Below the pieces are notes generated by a model. It ran no database searches and was not told where the DNA came from. It worked only from the letters and a program-made list of their open reading frames with translations. Positions 45,858-57,585 of a DNA stretch of 64,000 nt are shown here, in pieces. The stretch is from Candidatus Dadabacteria bacterium (GTDB lineage Bacteria > Desulfobacterota_D > UBA1144 > Nemesobacterales > Nemesobacteraceae): NCBI GenBank assembly GCA_022822065.1, contig JAJECI010000007.1, forward strand, positions 62,001 to 126,000, in the 5' to 3' direction. The translations under genes were made by a program, and so were the position numbers. Within the stretch, counting starts at the first letter, position 1. Each line of letters begins with the position of its first letter.

Positions 45858-46733
45858 ATGAACGGACTTCTAGAAAGCTTCATAAAGCACCTCTCGGACG
45901 AAAGAAACTACTCGGAACACACGGTAAAGGCCTATAGGAGAGATCTTGAGAATTTCCGCGATTTTCTCTTAAAGGAAGAGAAGAAGATCGAGGACGCAGA
46001 CGTAGCGGCCATAAACGCCTACGTCTCAACCCTCTACGGAAAAAACTCCCCGGCCTCGGTAGAGAGAAAAGTATCGGCGATAAGGTCCTTTTTCTCGTAT
46101 CTGGTAAGAAAAGGTCTCGCGGCGCAGAACCCCGCGAAACTCGTACGCACCCCAAAAAAGGAAAAACACCTTCCCGTGTTTTTAAGCGTGGACGAGGTGT
46201 TCAACCTGGTTGACGTAAAGGATTCTGAGAAAAATCCGCTTTGCGTGCGTGACAGGGCGATTCTCGAGCTTCTTTACTCAAGCGGCCTCCGGGTAAGCGA
46301 ACTCGCGGGGGCCACGCTCGCCGACCTCAGCATGGGAGAGGCTATAATAAGGGTCCGCGGAAAGGGGAACAAGGAGAGAATCGTTCCCGTGGGGTCAAAG
46401 GCACTTTCCGCACTCGGGGAGTATCTTGACATAAGGGGGACGCTGAAGCCCGCATCCGACCACATATTCCTTAATTCGAGGGGAGGCGGAATAACCACGA
46501 GAAGTCTGGCGCGAATAATAAAGAAGTACGGCCTAGTATCGGGGATATCGAAAAACGTGAGTCCCCACGTGCTCCGGCACTCGTTCGCCACCCACCTGCT
46601 TGCGGGCGGCGCGGACCTTCGGGCGATACAGGAGATGCTCGGCCACGCAAGTCTCTCGACGACCCAGAGATACACCCATCTCTCGGTCGAGCGGATAATG
46701 GAAGTGTACGACAAGACCCACCCGAACGCCTAG
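45858..46733 (+). CDS. xerC: Tyrosine recombinase XerC-like
   Basis: Site-specific recombinase that resolves chromosome dimers at dif. Of 291 residues, the N-terminal SAM-like core-binding domain spans about 1-90. Catalytic residues appear in SSGLRVSELAG (Arg), HVLRHSFATHLL (His-Arg), LGHASLSTTQRYTHL (His and nucleophile Tyr). It precedes hslV-hslU, the order known as codV-clpQ-clpY in Firmicutes and found in other phyla. XerC versus XerD is chosen by this context. Confidence 0.88.
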   Translation: MNGLLESFIKHLSDERNYSEHTVKAYRRDLENFRDFLLKEEKKIEDADVAAINAYVSTLYGKNSPASVERKVSAIRSFFSYLVRKGLAAQNPAKLVRTPKKEKHLPVFLSVDEVFNLVDVKDSEKNPLCVRDRAILELLYSSGLRVSELAGATLADLSMGEAIIRVRGKGNKERIVPVGSKALSALGEYLDIRGTLKPASDHIFLNSRGGGITTRSLARIIKKYGLVSGISKNVSPHVLRHSFATHLLAGGADLRAIQEMLGHASLSTTQRYTHLSVERIMEVYDKTHPNA

Positions 46734-46760
46734 AGGCTGCGGGTGAAAGAGGAAAAAACC

Positions 46761-47297
46761 ATGAGCCAGTTTCACGGAACCACGATACTCTGCGTTAAAA
46801 AAGACGGCCGGGTGGCCCTCGGGGGCGACGGCCAGGTGACCATGGGAGCAACCGCGGTAAAGCATAACGCCAAAAAAATAAGGAAGATGCGTGGCGGGAA
46901 GATCTGCGCCGGATTCGCGGGCTCAACTGCGGACGCGATGACGCTTTTTGACAAGTTCGAGGGAAAGCTCGAGGAATTCAGTGGAAGCCTGGAGCGCTCC
47001 GCGGTCGAACTCGCAAAAGAATGGAGAACGGACAGGATCCTGAGAAGGCTCGAAGCCCTGCTAATAGTCGCTAACTCTGAAACCATGCTCATAATCTCTG
47101 GAAGCGGAGACGTAATAGAACCTGACGATAGCGTGATAGCCATAGGCTCAGGAGGCCCCTTCGCTCAGGCGGCCGCTTTGGCGCTTGCCAAGCACTCGGA
47201 GCTTCCCGCCCCGAAGATAGTCGAGCGCTCGCTTGAGATCGCGGCCGGAATCTGCATTTACACAAACAGCTACATATCCATAGAGGAAATAGAATAG
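46761..47297 (+). CDS. hslV: ATP-dependent protease peptidase subunit HslV
   Basis: Proteasome-like threonine peptidase working with HslU. The ORF opens with GTG at 46743, but ATG at 46761 has GAGGAAAAAACC before it. The product begins [16 protein letters not shown]; the nucleophile should be Thr7, exposed after removal of a six-residue leader, unlike E. coli where only Met is lost. [11 protein letters not shown] and the Lys-rich NAKKIRKM region match the family. The hslU start codon follows the stop directly. Confidence 0.94.
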
Positions 47298-48647
47298 ATG
47301 TCCCAGGAATCCTACCTCACCCCGAGGGAAATAGTATCGGAGCTAGACAAGTACATAGTCGGACAGAACATGGCCAAAAGAGCCGTGGGCGTAGCGCTCA
47401 GGAACAGGTGGAGAAGGCAGAAGGTATCGCCCGAGCTTCGCGACGAGATATCCCCCAAGAACATACTCATGATGGGACCCACCGGCGTGGGAAAAACTGA
47501 AATAGCCCGGCGCCTGGCGAGACTCGCCCAGGCCCCCTTCGTAAAGGTCGAAGCGTCAAAGTTCACCGAAGTCGGCTATGTGGGTAGGGACGTTGAGTCG
47601 ATGATACGGGACCTAACCGAGATAGCCGTCAACATGGTAACGGAGGAAGAGACCCTTTCGGTTAACACGAGGGCCAGGGATCTTGCCGAAGACAAGCTCA
47701 TCGATCTGCTCGTCCCGACGCGCCCCGTCACGGAGGCGGACGGGGACATGGAAGAGGCCCAGAAAAAGATGAGCGAGACCAAGAAGAAGATGAGAAAGCT
47801 TCTTTGGGACGGGAAGCTTGACGACAGGGAAGTCGAGATAGAAATAACGGCGAGGTCTCTTCCCATACAGGTGTTCAGTCAGGCGGGAGTCGAGGAGATG
47901 GACCCCGGCATCTCCGAGATGATCGGTAGCCTCATGCCCAAAAAATCGAAGGTAAGAAAGGTCAAGGTTCCCGAGGCCATGGATATCCTAACCGAGGAGG
48001 AAGCCCGAAAGCTAATAGACATGGACAAGGTTACCCATCTAGCTCTCGAGAGAACCGAGAACTCGGGGATAATCTTCATAGACGAGATAGACAAGGTCGC
48101 CGGAAAAAACGGCGTCTCGGGCCCTGATGTCTCAAGAGAAGGAGTGCAGAGGGACCTTCTCCCCATAATCGAGGGAAGCAGCGTCACCACGAAGCACGGG
48201 ATGGTCAGGACCGATCACATACTCTTCATCGGAGCCGGGGCGTTTCACGTCTCAAAACCGTCCGATCTCATACCTGAGCTCCAGGGACGTTTCCCCATAA
48301 GGGTTGAGCTTGAGGCGCTCACCAAAGACGACTTCATACGAATCCTCACCGAGCCCAAAAACGCCCTCATAAAACAGTACACCGAACTCATGAGGACCGA
48401 GGACATAAAACTCTCTTTCACCGACGAGGCGATAGAGAAAATAGCCGAGACCGCGGCCGAAGTTAACAGCTCCACCGAGAACATAGGGGCGAGAAGACTT
48501 CACACCGTCCTTGAGAAGCTGCTTGATGAGATCTCCTTTAACGCTCCCGACATGAAAGAGAAAAAATTCACCATAGACAAAAGCTATGTTGAGGAGAAAA
48601 TAGCTGACATCGTGAAGGACAGAGATCTAAGCAGGTACATACTCTAG
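47298..48647 (+). CDS. hslU: ATP-dependent protease ATPase subunit HslU
   Basis: AAA+ unfoldase of 449 residues that feeds HslV. Walker [16 protein letters not shown], Walker [10 protein letters not shown], an I-domain of about 110-230 with acidic and lysine-rich helices, and the sensor-2 [13 protein letters not shown] are present. The C-terminus ends DRDLSRYIL, the conserved tail that docks into HslV. Start and stop of hslV and hslU abut. Confidence 0.96.
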
Positions 48648-48714
48648 CTAGGAAGGTTTTGTCAGAACTTTCCCTTTTAGTTAGATTCTTCGGGAAAAAT
48701 TCCCTGGAACCGAG

Positions 48715-50190
48715 ATGAATTTCAAAAACTACGACACAGAAGGCTTTTATGACGAGGTATTCAAGGATAACGCCACCCCGCACGAGTGGACCCGCTTTTT
48801 AACCGACAGGATAGAAAGCCTCTCAGGCGGAGAGCTGATCGACAGGCAGAAAGCCGCAGAGATGAACCTGTTCGAGATGGGGGTCACCTTCACCCTCTAC
48901 TCGGAAAAAAAGAAAGAGGCTGAGGAAAACATCTTCCCCTTCGACATAATCCCGAGGATAGTGTCGGCCGAGGACTGGGAACTCATAGAAAGGGGCCTCA
49001 AGCAGAGAATCCACGCTCTTAACCTCTTTATAGACGACATATACAACGACCGCAAGATCCTGAGGGACAAGGTGGTTCCCAAGGAACTCATCCTCTCAAG
49101 CAGGGAGTTTCGCCTTGACTGCGTCGGTTTTTCCCCGCCGAAGAATATCTGGTGCCACATCACGGGAACGGACCTCATAAGACATTCGGACGGAAACTTC
49201 TACATCCTCGAAGATAACCTTCGCTCCCCCTCCGGTGTCTCCTACGTGCTTGAGAACCGCGAGCTTCTTAAGCGCACCTTTCCCAAGGTGTTCGGCACCG
49301 TCGAGATAATGCCCATAAGCGATTACGGGCTTCACCTCCATGATACCCTCCAGTACCTGCTCTCCGACAGAACGGCCAACCCCAAGGTGGTGCTTCTCAC
49401 CCCGGGGATCTACAACTCGGCCTACTTCGAGCACTCGTTTCTGGCAAAGGAGATGGGAATAGAGCTTGTCGAGGGAAGGGATCTCGTCGTGGTTGAGAAT
49501 TTCGTTTACCTAAAGACCACCAAGGGGCTTGAAAAAGTGGACGTCATATACAGACGCATAGACGACAACTTCCTCGACCCTCAGGTGTTCCGTCCAGACT
49601 CCGTGCTCGGAGTTCCGGGGCTTTTCGGCGCTTACAAGGCCGGAAACGTCGCCATAGCCAACGCCCCCGGAGGAGGAGTTGCCGACGACAAGATAATATA
49701 CGCCTACGTTGAGAAGATAATAAAGTACTATCTGGGAGAAGATCCTGTGATCTCGAACGTGCCGACGTATATCTGCGAGGAGGATGAGGCCAGAAAATAC
49801 GTGCTCGACAATATAGAGAAGCTGGTCGTAAAGCCCGCGAACGAATCCGGAGGATACGGGATAGTATTCGGGCCCAAGGCGACGAAAGAGGAGCTTGCCC
49901 AGGCCAAAAGAGACATAAAGGCGGACCCCAGGAACTACATAGCCCAGAAGACCATGTCCCTCTCCCGAGCCCCCGTGATAGTGGACGATCATTTCGAGGG
50001 GCGCCACGTCGACCTGAGACCCTTCATCCTCTACGGAAAAGAGATATTCGTCCTGCCCGGAGGCCTTACCAGGGTGGCACTCCGCAAAGGTTCAATGATA
50101 GTTAATTCGTCCCAGGGCGGGGGAAGCAAGGACACTTGGGTGCTTGCTCCCGCAAAGAACGCCAGGGGCAAAGGAGGCAGAAAATCCTAA
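48715..50190 (+). CDS. Circularly permuted ATP-grasp protein of the Anbu cluster
   Basis: 491 residues of the CP_ATPgrasp type 2 family (former DUF404/DUF407). Motifs include ILEDNLRSPSGVSYVLENR, ANAPGGGVADDKIIYAYVE, LVVKPANESGGYGIV and DLRPFILYGKEIFVLPGGLTRVALRKGS. Family knowledge suggests an amide-bond-forming ligase that may make or attach a peptide tag; the reaction is unproven. It is first in a four-gene set with alpha-E, Anbu and transglutaminase-like proteins, 67 bp after hslU. Its stop codon overlaps the probable start of the alpha-E gene. Confidence 0.9.
   Translation: MNFKNYDTEGFYDEVFKDNATPHEWTRFLTDRIESLSGGELIDRQKAAEMNLFEMGVTFTLYSEKKKEAEENIFPFDIIPRIVSAEDWELIERGLKQRIHALNLFIDDIYNDRKILRDKVVPKELILSSREFRLDCVGFSPPKNIWCHITGTDLIRHSDGNFYILEDNLRSPSGVSYVLENRELLKRTFPKVFGTVEIMPISDYGLHLHDTLQYLLSDRTANPKVVLLTPGIYNSAYFEHSFLAKEMGIELVEGRDLVVVENFVYLKTTKGLEKVDVIYRRIDDNFLDPQVFRPDSVLGVPGLFGAYKAGNVAIANAPGGGVADDKIIYAYVEKIIKYYLGEDPVISNVPTYICEEDEARKYVLDNIEKLVVKPANESGGYGIVFGPKATKEELAQAKRDIKADPRNYIAQKTMSLSRAPVIVDDHFEGRHVDLRPFILYGKEIFVLPGGLTRVALRKGSMIVNSSQGGGSKDTWVLAPAKNARGKGGRKS
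50170..50186 (+). promoter_or_regulatory. Ribosome binding site and apparent AUC start of the alpha-E gene
   Basis: AAAGGAGG at 50170-50177 is a near-perfect Shine-Dalgarno. Six bases later, at 50184, is ATC, which would begin (M)LSRVAESIYWMSRYAERAGN, the standard opening of alpha-E proteins. No ATG, GTG or TTG occurs at this place. The ATC overlaps the TAA of the ATP-grasp gene (ATCCTAA). Confidence 0.55.
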
Positions 50191-51164
50191 GTCGCGTCGC
50201 AGAATCTATATACTGGATGAGCCGCTACGCCGAGCGCGCCGGGAACACCGCGAGGCTCATAAGCGTAAACCTGGGCCTCGCCATTGACACCCATGACTCC
50301 GTTGAGCAGGAATGGGACCCCATAGTAAAGGTGACGGGAGACATGGAGCTTTTCAGAAGCCTTTACGACGGCACGACCCGGGAGAACGTAATAAACTTCA
50401 TGGTGCTTGACCGTAACAACCCGAACTCCATCATCTCCTGCGTTAACTGCGCCCGGGAGAACGCAAGTTCCGTGAGGGAGATAATCTCCTCCGAGATGTG
50501 GCTTCTCATAAACCGCTTCTACCACAGGCTAAACAGCGAGGATGCCAAGCAGAAGCTGCTCGACAATCCCGGAAAATTCTGCGAAGTGGCAAAAGTGCAG
50601 AGCCTTCTTTTTCACGGATCCGGGTACATAAGCATATCCCACGGCGAGGCGTGGCACTTCTCGGAACTCGGAAAGCAGATGGAACGGGCCGATAATACCT
50701 CCAGGATCCTCGACGTCAAGTACTACACCCTGCTCCCCAAGGCGGAACTCGTTGGAACGTCGATAGACAACATGCAGTGGATAGCCCTTCTTAAGTCAAC
50801 AAGCGCCCTTGAGACCTACAAGGCGAAGCACCAGCAGATATCAATAGGCAACGTGCTCGATTTTCTCATCCTTGATAACCAGTTTCCCCGTTCGATAATC
50901 TACTGCGTCGCACAGGCCGACGAGTCGCTTCACTGCATATCCAACAGCCCTGCCGGCTCCTATAACAACGAAACCGAAAAAGAGATGGGAAGGCTTCTCT
51001 CGGACCTTCGGTTCACAAGCGTCGGGGAGATAATACAGCGCGGAATGCACCAGTATCTAACCAGTTTCCAGTCCCACATAAACGAGGTTGGAAACCGCAT
51101 ATACGACGATTACTTCAGCTACAGCATAACGGACAGCGCCCTTCGGGACTTCGACGATATCTGA
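50184..51164 (+). CDS. Alpha-E domain protein (DUF403) of the Anbu cluster
   Basis: All-helical protein of about 327 residues with the family signature SRVAESIYWMSRYAERAGNTARL at its N-terminus, and later FSELGKQMERADNTSRILD. The ORF track starts with TTG at 50136, adding 16 residues of frame-shadowed ATP-grasp sequence. The alternative start is ATC at 50184 after AAAGGAGG. Alpha-E proteins always keep company with the ATP-grasp and transglutaminase-like genes; they may act as a scaffold or partner of the ligase. Biochemical role unknown. Confidence 0.85.
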   Translation: MLSRVAESIYWMSRYAERAGNTARLISVNLGLAIDTHDSVEQEWDPIVKVTGDMELFRSLYDGTTRENVINFMVLDRNNPNSIISCVNCARENASSVREIISSEMWLLINRFYHRLNSEDAKQKLLDNPGKFCEVAKVQSLLFHGSGYISISHGEAWHFSELGKQMERADNTSRILDVKYYTLLPKAELVGTSIDNMQWIALLKSTSALETYKAKHQQISIGNVLDFLILDNQFPRSIIYCVAQADESLHCISNSPAGSYNNETEKEMGRLLSDLRFTSVGEIIQRGMHQYLTSFQSHINEVGNRIYDDYFSYSITDSALRDFDDI

Positions 51165-51176
51165 GAGAGAGAACAT

Positions 51177-51914
51177 ATGACTTTCTGCGTGGGAATGAAA
51201 CTTAAGGAAGGAATAATCGGGCTTGCCGATAACCTCATAATAACGGGAAACGAGGCCATACGGGCAAAGAAGGTCACCACCCACAGGGCCGGGGACAATT
51301 CGTTTTTCCTTATGACCTCGGGACTTCGCTCCGCGAGGGACAAGACCATCACCTATCTTGACGAGGCCCTTGAGCACTCCCAGGAACCGCTTGACCGCCT
51401 CTACAAGGCAGTGAATCTTTTCTCAAGGGAGCTTCGGAAGGTAAAAGAAGAAGACGGAGAGGTGCTTTCCGAGTCGGGATTTGCCTTCAACATGTACTCC
51501 ATAATAGGAGGGCAGTTTGAAAACGACCCCGAGCCCCAGCTTTTCCTCGTCTATCCACAGGGAAACTGGATTAACGTTGGAACTACATCCCCCTACGTTA
51601 TAATAGGCGAATCGAAATACGGGAAACCGATAATAAAAAGAACCCTTACCCACGACACCAGCCTCGATGTCGCGCTTCGCATCGCATATCTTGCGTTTGA
51701 TTCAAGCCGCATAAACGCCATAGACGTCGATTTTCCGATAGACATCATAGTCTACAGAAGCAACTCATTCTCCCTCGAGCAGTACAGGTTCAACGAAAAC
51801 GAACTGGCGGACATATCCGAGTGGTGGCAGGAGAGGCTCAGAAAATCGGCCGAGGAAATGCCCGCCGAATGGGTAAGAAAAATTCTTAACAGAAGTCCGA
51901 AAAGTGCTGCTTAG
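51177..51914 (+). CDS. Anbu (bacterial proteasome-homologue) peptidase
   Basis: Ntn-hydrolase of 245 residues in the Anbu/BPH group. It begins MTFCVGMKLKEG, so Thr2 becomes the N-terminal nucleophile after Met removal. GIIGLADNL supplies the Asp17 equivalent and RAKKVTTH the lysine. Anbu proteins form helical or ring assemblies, and their substrates are unknown. Start ATG at 51177 is 12 bp after the alpha-E stop. Its end overlaps the next gene by 11 bp, so the four cluster genes are tightly coupled. Confidence 0.9.
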   Translation: MTFCVGMKLKEGIIGLADNLIITGNEAIRAKKVTTHRAGDNSFFLMTSGLRSARDKTITYLDEALEHSQEPLDRLYKAVNLFSRELRKVKEEDGEVLSESGFAFNMYSIIGGQFENDPEPQLFLVYPQGNWINVGTTSPYVIIGESKYGKPIIKRTLTHDTSLDVALRIAYLAFDSSRINAIDVDFPIDIIVYRSNSFSLEQYRFNENELADISEWWQERLRKSAEEMPAEWVRKILNRSPKSAA

Positions 51915-52785
51915 CATAGATCACAACACAACTTACTCCTACGGAAAAAAAGTGGTCCTGGCCCCTCACACCGTGAGGCTTCGCCCGAGAGACGGCGGGG
52001 GGCAGATGACCCATATGTTTTCGCTCAGGACGGATCCCCCCGAAGCGGGAAGAAGCGTGAACTCGGATCTTGACGGGAACACTACCGTTACCCTGTGGTT
52101 TACGGGCGAGTCAGACAGTCTCACAATCGATACCAGCTGCGTCGTCGAGACGCTTCGGGAAAACCCTTTTGACTTCATAGTTTCCGACGTAAGGTTCCTT
52201 GATCTGCCGATGGAGTACCCCCGCGAGCAGAAGGCGGCCCTTCGCCCGTACCTAGCGGTGAGCAAAAAAACGGCTCTGGCGGTCTCGCCGCTTCGAGAAA
52301 CGGTCCTCTCGCAGACCATGGGAAAAACCACGGATTTCATTCTCTCGCTCTGCGAGCACATACACGACAATTTCCCCCACGTTGCGAGGGAGCAGGGCGG
52401 ACCCTGGTCCGCGGAGAGAACCCTCAGGGAGAAAAGAGGGTCCTGCAGGGACCTTGTGGAGCTTTTCGCGGCCGTATGCCGCTCGGTCGGTCTTGCGTGC
52501 AGGCACGTAAGCGGCTACGCGCTCAGCGCAAGAAGAAAAAAAGGAGACGAGCTTCACGCCTGGGCCGAGGTCTACATACCGGGAGGAGGATGGAGAGGCT
52601 ATGATCCCTCTTCAGGTCTTGCGGTTTCAGACCGCCACGTCGCGGTCGCAAGCGGCGCCACCCACGGGCTCATCGCCCCCGTTTCGGGAAGTTTCTACGG
52701 GGACGGAGCCGAAGTCGAACTCCAGTTCCGTGTAAGGGTAAGAAAAACGGGAAAACGGCAGAAAAAAGCCCTAGGGCTTCTCTAG
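51904..52785 (+). CDS. Transglutaminase-like cysteine peptidase of the Anbu cluster
   Basis: 293 residues: an N-terminal bacterial transglutaminase-type beta domain, then the core with Cys in EKRGSCRDLVELFAAVCR, His in DELHAWAEVYIPGGGWRGYDPS and the Asp in the same stretch. The fold predicts a papain-like protease or amide-transfer enzyme acting in the cytoplasm. GTG at 51904 overlaps the Anbu stop. It closes the ATP-grasp, alpha-E, Anbu set and may remove or process the peptide made by the ligase; this is inference. Confidence 0.9.
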   Translation: MLLSIDHNTTYSYGKKVVLAPHTVRLRPRDGGGQMTHMFSLRTDPPEAGRSVNSDLDGNTTVTLWFTGESDSLTIDTSCVVETLRENPFDFIVSDVRFLDLPMEYPREQKAALRPYLAVSKKTALAVSPLRETVLSQTMGKTTDFILSLCEHIHDNFPHVAREQGGPWSAERTLREKRGSCRDLVELFAAVCRSVGLACRHVSGYALSARRKKGDELHAWAEVYIPGGGWRGYDPSSGLAVSDRHVAVASGATHGLIAPVSGSFYGDGAEVELQFRVRVRKTGKRQKKALGLL

Positions 52786-52853: not shown

Positions 52854-52940
52854 GGGAACTTTAGAGGAATGGCAAAAAAGCCAACGGGCCGTAACGGTAA
52901 ACTGCAGGTCATGCTATCAAAAAAGGGGGAAGACATCTCA

Positions 52941-55247
52941 ATGGTTCGCAGAAAATTTAAATCCAGGTTAAAGACGCTCTTGGGAACTTTCGCCGTGGGC
53001 GCGGTTCTTACTCTTATAAGCGGCGTCTCGGCTAACGCCCAGGATGCGTTCGGCGTAAGCAGCGTTTTGCTTGAAAAGATCACAGTCACGGCGCGAAAGC
53101 GAGAGGAACTGATTCAGAACGTTCCCCTCTCGGTAACGCATTTCAGCTCCGAAGAGATTGACACCCTTAAGGTAAGGAACCTTGAAAGTCTGGCTGTAAA
53201 GATGCCCAACGTCGCGCTTGACGACATCGGCACCGTGGGAGGAATCGCTAACTTTTCCATTCGCGGACTCGGGATAAACAGCTCCATACCGTCCGTTGAC
53301 CCGACCGTGGGAGTGTTCGTCGACGGCGTGTATTTCGGGGCCAACATCGGCGGCGCCCTGTTCGACACGCTTGACATCGAGAGCATCGAGGTGCTTAGAG
53401 GTCCACAGGGAACGCTTTTCGGGCGTAACGTGACCGGGGGCGCAATACTGGTGAACACCAAAAAACCCGGAGACACTCTGGAGATGTCCGTTCGCACTTC
53501 GTTTGAAGGAGGAGGAGAAAACCTAAACAGCTACTACATGGGTACTGTGGGAGGCCCTCTGGGCGAAACCGTTAGCGCCAGGATAACCGCGTACACCAAC
53601 CAGGATAACGGCTGGTTCAAGAACCTTCACACCGGCGAAGCTTTCGGCGACCTAGACGTCCGGATGGTGCGGCCGGTGCTCGTCTGGGAACCCACAGACG
53701 ACCTGAGCCTGGTACTCCGATACCAGTACGATAGCATCGACGGCGACGGCCCCGCGGCACAGAACCACACAAACGGATTCGGCGTCTCAAACGCGGCGGC
53801 TAACTTTGCCCGAGACAGCCACGACTTCAGCATCAATCATGAAGGCCAAAGGGAAAACGAAGCTCATTTCTTCGCCGCCCAGATGGACTGGGACGTGGGT
53901 TTCGGCGACGGCACGATAACAAACATTTTCGGCTGGCGCGATTCAAAAACCTTCTCGTCAGTTGATCTCGACGCCTCGCCGCTTGAACTCATGAACGCGC
54001 AGGCATGGAGCAATTACAGGCAGTGGAGTAACGAGCTGCGTTACACGGGCAGGTTTCTTGAAAGACTCAATGCGACTACGGGAGTCTACTACTTTAGCAA
54101 CAAGATCAACTACAGCGAGCACCGCTCTCTGCTTACCGACGCTATAGCGGCATCGGGTCTTCCCTTCCCGCCAGGAACGGACGTGTCCCAGTTCGGAGGC
54201 GGAAACTACGACGTTGAAACTCTGGGTCTGTTCCTCTCTCTGGACTATGATCTCACAAGCCAGCTGACGCTCACCGCGGGTGCGCGGTACACGCGCGACA
54301 AAAGGGAGGGCGAAATAGCTTTGATTCCCACCAGTAGTCCCCTTGCGCCGCTACCGTCTTGCAATATCGTTGAAGGTCCCGACTGCGAGTTTGATTTCAT
54401 AGATGAGGAGACATGGCACAGCTGGTCGCCCAAGTTCGGCGCCACTTATTACATAAGCGGCGAAGCCAACGTTTACGGACACTGGACCAGAGGATTTCGC
54501 TCCGGAGGCTACAACCTCCGCAACCTTTCGCCCGACTACCCCCCGGGACCGTATGATGAAGAGACGATCGACAGCTTCGAGGCCGGATTCAAGGTCACAA
54601 AAGACCGCGGCCGTCTATACGGAGCAGCCTTCTACAACATGATTGATGACATGCAAAGGGAAATTAACTTTCCCGATCCATTACTCGGTATAGTTCAGTT
54701 GATCGACAACACCGCCGATGTTGAGGCCTATGGCTTTGAGCTTGACGGCCTGTTCGCCATAGCGGAGAGCCTGTTCCTGACCGGTTCCGTAGGGTACGTC
54801 AATCCCGAGTACACCAAAATAAAATATGACCTTAATCGAGACGGGACTCTTGACGTAAAAGATCTAGATTTAGAGCCTCCCCGCGCCGCGAAGTGGACTT
54901 ACAGCGTGGGACTTACCCACGACACGGGAGCAGCCAGTTGGGGGCGGATGACGTCCCGGATAAGCTACGCTTATCGCGACAAGTCATACTTCACCGATGA
55001 CAACAGGGGCTATATACTGGAGCAGAACATACTTGACGCCGGGATTGACATCATTCCCGCAAACGGCCGGTTCTCAATCGGTCTTTACGGCAAGAACCTG
55101 CTTGACGAAGTCAAGCATGGGGGCGACAGCCAGCTGCCCACCACCTTGGGCGCTCCACCTCTGTCGGCACCTCTTGGCGGCACGTTCGCACCGCTTGCAA
55201 AAGGCAGAATATTCGGAGTTCAGCTGACCTACCGGCACAAGAGCTGA
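52941..55247 (+). CDS. TonB-dependent outer-membrane receptor
   Basis: Energised outer-membrane channel for a large nutrient such as an iron chelate or glycan. The ORF begins at 52869; ATG at 52941 starts a good signal peptide (MVRRKFKSRLKTLLG...SANAQ), giving 768 residues. A TonB box-like ITVTARKREE is followed by the plug (about 50-160, NVPLSVTHFSSEEID and EVLRGPQGTLFGRNVTGGAI), then a 22-strand barrel. This pattern of plug motifs resembles the large sphingomonad/gamma-proteobacterial receptor group. Ligand unknown; no partner genes adjacent. Confidence 0.9.
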   Translation: MVRRKFKSRLKTLLGTFAVGAVLTLISGVSANAQDAFGVSSVLLEKITVTARKREELIQNVPLSVTHFSSEEIDTLKVRNLESLAVKMPNVALDDIGTVGGIANFSIRGLGINSSIPSVDPTVGVFVDGVYFGANIGGALFDTLDIESIEVLRGPQGTLFGRNVTGGAILVNTKKPGDTLEMSVRTSFEGGGENLNSYYMGTVGGPLGETVSARITAYTNQDNGWFKNLHTGEAFGDLDVRMVRPVLVWEPTDDLSLVLRYQYDSIDGDGPAAQNHTNGFGVSNAAANFARDSHDFSINHEGQRENEAHFFAAQMDWDVGFGDGTITNIFGWRDSKTFSSVDLDASPLELMNAQAWSNYRQWSNELRYTGRFLERLNATTGVYYFSNKINYSEHRSLLTDAIAASGLPFPPGTDVSQFGGGNYDVETLGLFLSLDYDLTSQLTLTAGARYTRDKREGEIALIPTSSPLAPLPSCNIVEGPDCEFDFIDEETWHSWSPKFGATYYISGEANVYGHWTRGFRSGGYNLRNLSPDYPPGPYDEETIDSFEAGFKVTKDRGRLYGAAFYNMIDDMQREINFPDPLLGIVQLIDNTADVEAYGFELDGLFAIAESLFLTGSVGYVNPEYTKIKYDLNRDGTLDVKDLDLEPPRAAKWTYSVGLTHDTGAASWGRMTSRISYAYRDKSYFTDDNRGYILEQNILDAGIDIIPANGRFSIGLYGKNLLDEVKHGGDSQLPTTLGAPPLSAPLGGTFAPLAKGRIFGVQLTYRHKS

Positions 55248-55441: not shown

Positions 55442-55471
55442 TTGTAATAAAAACCCCGGTTGCTATATAAT
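55442..55471 (+). promoter_or_regulatory. Promoter of the argBDF operon
   Basis: TTGTAA at 55442-55447 and a perfect TATAAT at 55466-55471 with an 18-bp spacer, about 28 bp before the argB start. A strong AAAGGAG ribosome site lies between. The 250-bp gap before argB shows nothing else I can name, and no clear terminator for the receptor gene. Confidence 0.6.
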
Positions 55472-55498
55472 GTTTTTTTTCGCAGAAAGGAGTTTTTC

Positions 55499-56380
55499 AT
55501 GAACAGTTCAGCCCAAAGGGCGGAAATACTGGTTGAGGCCCTCCCTTACATAGAGGCGTTTCACGGCAAAACCGTCGTGGTCAAGTACGGTGGAAGCGTA
55601 GGCAGGGAAGATCTTTCGAATTTCGTGCGCGACCTCACACTGATGAAGTACGTCGGGATAAAACCGGTAGTAGTGCACGGAGGAGGACCCCAGATTCAGG
55701 AGCATCTCGACACTCTGGGAATAAAATCCGACTTCATAGCCGGGCTCCGCGTAACCAGCAGGCAGGTAATGGAAGTGGTCGAGATGGTTCTTGTCGGAAA
55801 GATAAACCAGCAGATCGTAACGTCGATAAACCGCCACCAGATGGGAACGGTGGGACTCTCAGGCAAGGAAGGAAAGCTTATAAAGGCTAAAAAATTCGAC
55901 CTTCAAAAATTCGCCGCTAACCACCATATAGATGTTCCCGAGGACGCAGACCTCGGCTACGTGGGCGAAGTTCATGAAATAAACCCCGAGGTAATCAGGA
56001 CGCTTGAAAGCAAGGATATCATTCCGATTATAGCTCCCATAGGATGGGGGGAAGACGGAACCACCTACAACATAAACGCGGACCACGCGGCGGGGAAGAT
56101 AGCGGGAGCGCTTCGCGCCGCAAAGCTCATACTGCTGACCAACGTTGACGGCATCCTGGACAAGAAAGGAAAGCTCATATCCTCCGTGACTAAGAAGCAG
56201 GCCGAGAAGCTTATCAGGGACGGGACGATAAACAGCGGAATGATCCCCAAGGTAATGTGCGCGCTTGAGGCTCTGGAAGAAGGGGTTAGCAAGGTGCACA
56301 TAATAAACGGGGGAGTAAAAAGGGCTCTCATACTCGAGCTTCTTACCGATTCGGGAATAGGGACGGAGATAACCCTTTGA
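55499..56380 (+). CDS. argB: Acetylglutamate kinase
   Basis: Second step of arginine synthesis. From ATG at 55499 (AAAGGAG six bases before) the protein is 293 residues. The amino acid kinase fold shows VVKYGGSVG, VVVHGGGPQI, the N-acetylglutamate site GLRVTSRQVMEVV and NADHAAGKIAGAL. It heads argB-argD-argF. An N-terminal helix before VVKYGG suggests the arginine-inhibited hexameric type, an inference. Confidence 0.95.
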   Translation: MNSSAQRAEILVEALPYIEAFHGKTVVVKYGGSVGREDLSNFVRDLTLMKYVGIKPVVVHGGGPQIQEHLDTLGIKSDFIAGLRVTSRQVMEVVEMVLVGKINQQIVTSINRHQMGTVGLSGKEGKLIKAKKFDLQKFAANHHIDVPEDADLGYVGEVHEINPEVIRTLESKDIIPIIAPIGWGEDGTTYNINADHAAGKIAGALRAAKLILLTNVDGILDKKGKLISSVTKKQAEKLIRDGTINSGMIPKVMCALEALEEGVSKVHIINGGVKRALILELLTDSGIGTEITL

Positions 56381-56391
56381 GGCCAGGGAAC

Positions 56392-57585
56392 ATGGAAGAC
56401 CCGCGGGGAAAATACCTGATGGAGACCTACAGCCGTCTTCCCATAACAATGCGGAAGGGAAGCGGTTCGTGGCTCTGGGACACGGAAGGGAAGAAGTATC
56501 TTGACTACACGACCGGGATAGCCGTTAACAACCTCGGGCACTGTCACCCTAGTATCACGGACGCCATAACATCCCAGGCCGCCACTCTGGTTCACACTTC
56601 AAACCTCTTTAACATAGAAAACCAGGGCGCGCTCTCCGAGATGCTCGTTTCAAATTCGTTTGCGGACAGGGTGTTTTTCTGTAACAGCGGAACCGAAGCC
56701 GTTGAAGGCTCGATAAAGCTCGCCAGGAAATGGGGAGCGCAGAACGGCGGAAGATTTGCGGTCATTTCAACCGAAGGAGCTTTTCACGGAAGGACTTTCG
56801 GAGCGCTTAGCGCCACGGAATCGGAAAAATACAGAGAGGGGTTTTCCCCTTTTCTTGAGGGATTCCACTTCGCTCCCTACGCGGATCCCGACGCGATCGC
56901 CCGCCTGGCCGCCGAGACAAACCCCTGCGCGGTCATTCTCGAACCGGTACAGGGAGAAAACGGAGTCATCGTTCCGCCCCCGGGATACCTAAGGCAGGTA
57001 AGGGAAATCTGCGGGAAAAGCGACATGCTGCTCATACTTGATGAGATCCAGGTCGGAATGGGAAGGACGGGAAAACTGTTTGCCCATGAACACGAGGACA
57101 TAAGGCCCGATATAATGGCACTCGCAAAGGCTCTCGGCGGCGGAGTGCCGTGCGGAGCGGTTCTGGCCACGGAGGACGTGGCGAAGCACTTCACCCCCGG
57201 AGCGCACGGAAGCACTTTCGGCGGAAATCCTCTGGCCGCGGGGGCGGCCTGCGCCGCGATTGAAACGATACTTCAGGAGAACCTGTCTGAAAGAGCGGGA
57301 GAACTCGGAGACTACTTTCTCGACAGACTTGAAGATGTCCGGAAAAAATATCCCGAGCATATAAGCGAGGTAAGGGGAAAGGGGCTTATAGTCGGGATTG
57401 AGTTCTCGGACAGGGATTTCGCGCAGGACTGCTTTTCGGTTTCAGTTAAAAACGGTCTTCTGGTTATACTCACTGTTGAACGCGTGTTTCGGATTCTTCC
57501 CCCGCTTAACACGAACGAGGAAGAGATTGACTTTGCCGTCGCCGTAATAACCAAATCCATTGAGGAGGTAGTTTCAAGTGGGTAG
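56392..57585 (+). CDS. argD: Acetylornithine aminotransferase
   Basis: Fourth step of arginine synthesis; PLP enzyme of class III. The PLP lysine is in MALAKALGGGVPCGA, and FCNSGTEAVEGSIKLAR and LDEIQVGMGRTGK are typical. The ORF track uses a TTG at 56377 overlapping the argB stop. ATG at 56392 after CAGGGAAC is slightly preferred (397 aa); both are possible. It may also serve lysine synthesis, as many ArgD enzymes do. Confidence 0.94.
   Translation: MEDPRGKYLMETYSRLPITMRKGSGSWLWDTEGKKYLDYTTGIAVNNLGHCHPSITDAITSQAATLVHTSNLFNIENQGALSEMLVSNSFADRVFFCNSGTEAVEGSIKLARKWGAQNGGRFAVISTEGAFHGRTFGALSATESEKYREGFSPFLEGFHFAPYADPDAIARLAAETNPCAVILEPVQGENGVIVPPPGYLRQVREICGKSDMLLILDEIQVGMGRTGKLFAHEHEDIRPDIMALAKALGGGVPCGAVLATEDVAKHFTPGAHGSTFGGNPLAAGAACAAIETILQENLSERAGELGDYFLDRLEDVRKKYPEHISEVRGKGLIVGIEFSDRDFAQDCFSVSVKNGLLVILTVERVFRILPPLNTNEEEIDFAVAVITKSIEEVVSSG

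Follow-up and report, generated by a model that had tools for sequence, protein, structure and literature searches.

The window is a stretch of 64,000 nucleotides, part of a 1.63 Mb genome (G000) whose genus (g1) has named records that are Candidatus Dadabacteria MAGs and, judging from isolate names, are probably largely sponge-associated. Within it, a xerC–hslV–hslU string is followed by four tightly packed genes encoding a circularly permuted ATP-grasp protein, an alpha-E protein, the proteasome relative Anbu and a transglutaminase-like cysteine protease (Table 1). A gap of 67 bp separates hslU from the ATP-grasp gene. The ATP-grasp and alpha-E genes overlap by 7 bp, alpha-E and Anbu are 12 bp apart, and the Anbu and protease genes overlap by 11 bp. 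With all four cluster genes in one run, the locus is an Anbu operon, and the set is the ordinary, already known Anbu cluster that an earlier note on this DNA had taken it to be. An ORF check of the window reproduced the gene coordinates of that note, and its families and spacings hold as well; the gene anatomy it described requires one refinement, at the start of alpha-E. The TonB-dependent receptor gene that precedes argB is absent from this position in G003, G014 and G020.

Table 1. Genes and sequence elements of the hslVU–Anbu region, in positions of the window
Feature	Position	Strand	Basis or remark
xerC, tyrosine recombinase	45858..46733	+	NCBIfam TIGR02224, 345.6 bits, above cut-off
hslV, HslVU peptidase	46743..47297 (likely start ATG 46761)	+	NF003964, E 1e-83
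hslU, AAA+ unfoldase with canonical HslV-docking tail DLSRYIL	47298..48647	+	TIGR00390, E 5e-197
Hairpin after hslU stop, possible weak terminator	48651..48673	+	Fold z = -3.4; window species only
Sigma70-like promoter, TTGTCA-17-TAGATT (putative)	48659..48687	+	Motif scan, 9 of 12 matches; variants in 14 of 14 congeners
Circularly permuted ATP-grasp, putative peptide/amide ligase	48715..50190	+	Pfam PF14403 (CP_ATPgrasp_2), E 4e-163; PF04174
Shine-Dalgarno AGGAGG	50172..50177	+	6 nt before alpha-E start; conserved in congeners
Alpha-E, non-canonical ATC start	50184..51164	+	Pfam PF04168 (Alpha-E), E 2.5e-96, from residue 2
Anbu, proteasome-like N-terminal Thr hydrolase	51177..51914	+	Pfam Proteasome; PDB Anbu chains, E 4e-36 to 7e-29
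Transglutaminase-like cysteine protease, GTG start	51904..52785	+	Pfam PF08379 (Bact_transglu_N) and PF01841 (Transglut_core)
TonB-dependent receptor	52869..55247	+	Between Anbu cluster and argB in most of genus g1
argB and argD	55460..57585	+	tblastn synteny across phylum; named from sequence

The catalytic residues of these enzymes are intact, as the earlier note had held. In the Dadabacteria alignment, Anbu residues Thr2, Asp18 and Lys32 (T1/D17/K32-33 in literature numbering) are invariant in 11 sequences, with the Thr nucleophile positioned directly after the initiator Met, and Cys181, His218 and Asp234 of the protease are invariant in its relatives. For HslV, the mature Thr lies within an HGTTIL motif and Thr1, Asp17 and Lys33 are readable in the sequence. 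A search of PDB sequences with Anbu returned Anbu chains only (5loy, 5nyw, 5nyj, 5nyf and 5lox), placing the protein closer to solved Anbu structures than to other proteasome relatives. Its neighbours in Nitrospirota, Planctomycetota, Verrucomicrobiota and Desulfovibrio indicate that it probably belongs to the Anbu-2 subtype. Towards the C-terminus, where Anbu proteins have helix H5 for their antiparallel coiled-coil dimer, helices are predicted at residues 208–226 and 230–237 in a block with pLDDT 62–81, within a model too poor overall (mean pLDDT 55) for a fold search. Three Anbu homologues of a 45-sequence set have Ser in place of the Thr nucleophile (N-terminus MSFCLG). Purified Anbu proteins cleaved none of the substrates tried (PMC6376114).

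The refinement concerns the first codon of alpha-E, for which there is no ATG, GTG or TTG at the conserved N-terminus. We compared this region (50172-50186 in the window; L029-L039 and L041) across 13 congeners. The start codon is ATC in 12 of them and ATT in one (G003), six nucleotides downstream of AGGAGG, or of GGAGG in one species, and in the window it overlaps the end of the ATP-grasp gene. In other families an ATG occupies the same position. The next ATG in the reading frame is codon 12, which lies inside a conserved motif and has no Shine-Dalgarno sequence. Two other origins for the N-terminus were considered and rejected. An upstream TTG start is incompatible with the stop codons that G005 and G003 have in frame at codons -9 and -2. 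A programmed -1 frameshift from ATP-grasp into alpha-E would use an AAA slip site that the window has but G002 and G006 lack, which is why the ATC start is preferred.

The intergenic segment upstream of the ATP-grasp gene contains a promoter-like leader whose 17-bp spacer is retained in all 14 congeners, including those with genes between hslU and the cluster. The -35-like hexamer occurs as TTGTCA, TTGGCA, TTGTTA or TTTGCA and the -10-like hexamer as TAGATT, TAGGTT, TAAGTT or TAAATT. Of the 63 leader positions, 21 are invariant; among 144 fourfold sites in the neighbouring ATP-grasp gene the figure is 14 (9.7%), and 20000 random samples of these sites gave no value so extreme. Such sites are a less than ideal neutral reference for a leader rich in A and T. 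The most conserved block is CTTTTAGTTAGATT. Mean pairwise identity is unremarkable (0.72 for the leader versus 0.68), and the signal resides in the invariant blocks. From this pattern we infer that the leader may be an active promoter. No sigma54 element was seen in the leader by eye; NtrC and sigma54 control a DUF404/DUF403/transglutaminase cluster of Burkholderia cenocepacia (PMC5491218).

A terminator between hslU and the cluster was also considered and rejected: the hairpin after the hslU stop codon has no counterpart in five congeners, where fold z is near 0, and a scan found terminator-like sites in the region at chance level. Because no conserved terminator separates the two, read-through from hslU across the 67 bp may add to expression of the cluster. 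The earlier note had named, as the pattern that would speak against its idea, a terminator and a separate promoter with unrelated expression, together with a lack of conserved adjacency in relatives. This is largely the pattern observed: the promoter-like leader is present and conserved and adjacency is restricted, but a conserved terminator was not found.

Anbu is present in 28 of the 61 genomes searched; essentially every genome of the order has HslU, whether or not Anbu accompanies it. The adjacency of hslU and the cluster in the genus is inherited rather than a matter of chance, because seven of 14 congeners keep a gap of 60–67 bp and two more a gap of 248–326 bp. It is interrupted in five congeners, always upstream of the ATP-grasp leader. 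The inserts measure 3385 bp in G012 and 2517 bp in G001, with AbiEi/AbiEii type IV toxin-antitoxin genes in the former and, by 89% DNA identity, likewise in the latter, and 2417 bp in G009, which carries an HTH-IrrE (Peptidase_M78) protein. The two inserts bounded by contig ends are at least 1392 bp (G004) and at least 491 bp (G013): in G004 the opposite strand encodes an MvdD-like ATP-grasp protein (graspetide ligase), accompanied by a possible precursor of 72 aa, and G013 has a remnant of the HTH-IrrE gene. The hslU–ATP-grasp junction is a recurrent cargo site (L032, L033, L039, L036 and L029).

Beyond the genus, the cluster is adjacent to hslU in G014 of the same family (137 bp) and in G020 of family f7 (250 bp). 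In G024, also from f7, an hslU fragment at a contig end lies ~7.8 kb from the ATP-grasp gene. Anbu is located away from hslVU in families f3 and f5. Among the best 80 Anbu loci from 84,980 species genomes, hslVU falls within the fetched flank in only seven, all of them Dadabacteria, a count that is a lower bound since some loci are short at one end; no such adjacency was seen in the ~70 others among these nearest 80, which come from many phyla. We did not find a description of Anbu–HslVU adjacency in the literature. The juxtaposition of both bacterial proteasome relatives, which the earlier note had put forward as new, is a new gene order, but one confined to families f1 and f7. The comparison with relatives that the note had proposed does not reveal a conserved, extended hslVU operon, given this restriction and the interruption in five of 14 congeners.

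Gene maps across the phylum indicate how the neighbourhood may have formed. In families f2, f4 and f6 and the sister family f8, hslU is followed directly by argB. Several f3 and f5 genomes have a minus-strand gene between the two, which belongs to the Chlor_dismutase family in the one case searched (L170); Chlor_dismutase-like minus-strand genes follow hslU at L165, L166, L170, L176, L177, L180 and L181. In f1 and f7 the Anbu cluster fills exactly the gap between hslU and argB, with argB–argD next. Given this gene order, the simplest account is that an older xerC–hslVU–argB–argD string took up the cluster at its hslU–argB junction. The TonB-dependent receptor gene was added later between the protease gene and argB in g1.

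Phylogenetic trees bear on how often the cluster arrived. An XerC–HslV–HslU tree separates f7, f6 and f1 from f4, f2, f5 and f3; support for this division is modest, and it would need loss of the cluster in f6. In the tree of the cluster itself, g1 forms a long branch and backbone support is low. A tree in which every Dadabacteria cluster falls into one clade is rejected (p-AU 0.0008), and the sequences support repeated arrival of the Anbu cluster within the phylum. The g1 cluster does not join those of G014 and f7 in the free tree, and other genes have landed repeatedly at the hslU–argB junction; both points would fit a recurrent landing site, at which the clusters of g1 and of G014/f7 arrived separately or the cluster was replaced at a later time. 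We regard this as a possible but distinctly less probable history, since a single clade of the f1 and f7 clusters (g1, G014 and f7) is just 0.8 log-likelihood units worse and is not rejected (p-AU 0.42). A circularly permuted ATP-grasp gene also occurs in genomes in which no Anbu was found, namely G017 (L179), where it stands together with alpha-E and the protease, and several f8 genomes.

The earlier note had raised the idea that the two gene sets lie side by side because they share substrates or control, or because Anbu uses HslU. HslU is far from a constant companion of this Anbu type outside Dadabacteria: it occurs in 19 of 44 Anbu-bearing genomes and is absent from 25, a figure that relies in part on draft genomes. 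Full-length HslV occurs in 18 of the 44 and a fragment in one more, which has HslU. An HslU tail adapted to Anbu was considered and rejected: Dadabacteria that have Anbu and those that lack it do not differ in any essential way in this tail. Published work likewise reports no AAA+ link for Anbu and no co-regulation of Anbu with HslV, and finds Anbu expression raised under nitrogen limitation (PMC5666114, PMC6376114). Shared control and HslU use by Anbu are both unlikely, because the leader stays with the ATP-grasp gene despite the cargo, HslU is often missing and its tail is unchanged. Shared substrates found no support.

These observations weigh on two rival explanations. Were the Anbu cluster an extension of the hslVU operon, with both proteasome relatives made together, for example under heat shock, the short same-strand gap, its retention at 60–67 bp in seven congeners and the lack of a conserved terminator would be expected. 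We consider this unlikely, since every congener has a promoter-like leader belonging to the cluster, five have unrelated genes in between (one on the opposite strand), the gaps are wider in G014 and G020, and Anbu–HslV co-regulation is lacking in other bacteria (PMC6376114). Much less probable still is a role for HslU as the Anbu unfoldase of the lineage. Of 44 genomes with this Anbu type, 25 lack HslU, its tail is essentially indifferent to Anbu, its normal partner HslV is present and intact, and Anbu assembles as an open split ring (PMC5666114); these points outweigh the proximity of hslU and a superposition that accommodates an HslU tail in the inter-subunit groove of Anbu (PMC6376114). Equally improbable is a combination of the two, in which the f1/f7 placement is kept because the proteasome relatives are co-expressed and HslU, as a lineage-specific AAA+ partner, feeds substrates to Anbu.

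We favour, with a probability of roughly 80%, a self-contained Anbu operon that was inserted between hslU and argB, is inherited vertically, has its own promoter and is independent of HslVU. A standard Anbu operon would have entered in the lineage leading to f1 and f7 and then been passed on vertically. Its transcription would start mainly at a promoter immediately before the ATP-grasp gene; genes overlap within the operon, which would function independently of HslVU. The same-strand gap of 60–67 bp in seven congeners speaks against complete independence, since read-through is possible there and could be selected. In line with published proposals, the most likely role for the cluster is the making and hydrolysis of amide bonds without an unfoldase. 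ATP-grasp and alpha-E may join an amino acid or peptide through an amide bond, and Anbu, as a Thr hydrolase, together with the Cys protease may hydrolyse the molecules so formed, or proteins that are damaged or tagged, with no AAA+ unfoldase involved. The amide-bond chemistry of ATP-grasp and alpha-E was proposed by Iyer 2009, as cited in PMC5666114 and PMC6376114, two papers that disagree on whether Anbu functions in peptide synthesis or in degradation.

Nothing points to joint action of the cluster and hslVU, so their proximity looks like a historical accident, and the occurrence of both bacterial proteasome relatives within 7 kb would be explained by insertion into an older gene string. This Anbu type lives without HslU in most sampled genomes outside the phylum, which removes HslU as a general answer to the missing ATPase of Anbu. 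Control of the cluster can be approached through two features, its conserved leader and the ATC codon at which alpha-E starts.

The locus represents an established type of system at a new location. It shares with the Anbu operon of, for example, Pseudomonas aeruginosa and Yersinia bercovieri the same four genes, tight packing and intact active sites (Valas and Bourne 2008; Iyer 2009; Fuchs 2017, PMC5666114; Piasecka, PMC6376114). Its gene order recurs in 36 of the best 80 Anbu loci, and in 27 more without a detected protease. Unlike the known operon, it has an hslVU neighbourhood, a conserved leader and, across the genus, an alpha-E gene starting at ATC. The upstream genes match the familiar xerC–hslVU string in order (xerC, hslV, hslU), in their short gaps and in HslV and HslU equivalogs with canonical residues; they differ in that the Dadabacteria string continues to argB–argD and is interrupted by the Anbu cluster in f1 and f7.

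The start of alpha-E has a parallel in infC, which in E. coli begins with AUU and is controlled by IF3. In the genus, infC has no ATG, GTG or TTG at the expected start and instead shows a conserved GGAGGT-AACGGT-ATA context (L187, L190-L192 and L194-L198), suggesting that it begins at AUA, and alpha-E begins at AUC or AUU behind a strong Shine-Dalgarno sequence. This resemblance suggests that alpha-E translation may be reduced, sensitive to IF3 and coupled to that of ATP-grasp. Unlike infC, the alpha-E gene does not encode a translation factor, and its start overlaps the stop codon of the gene before it.
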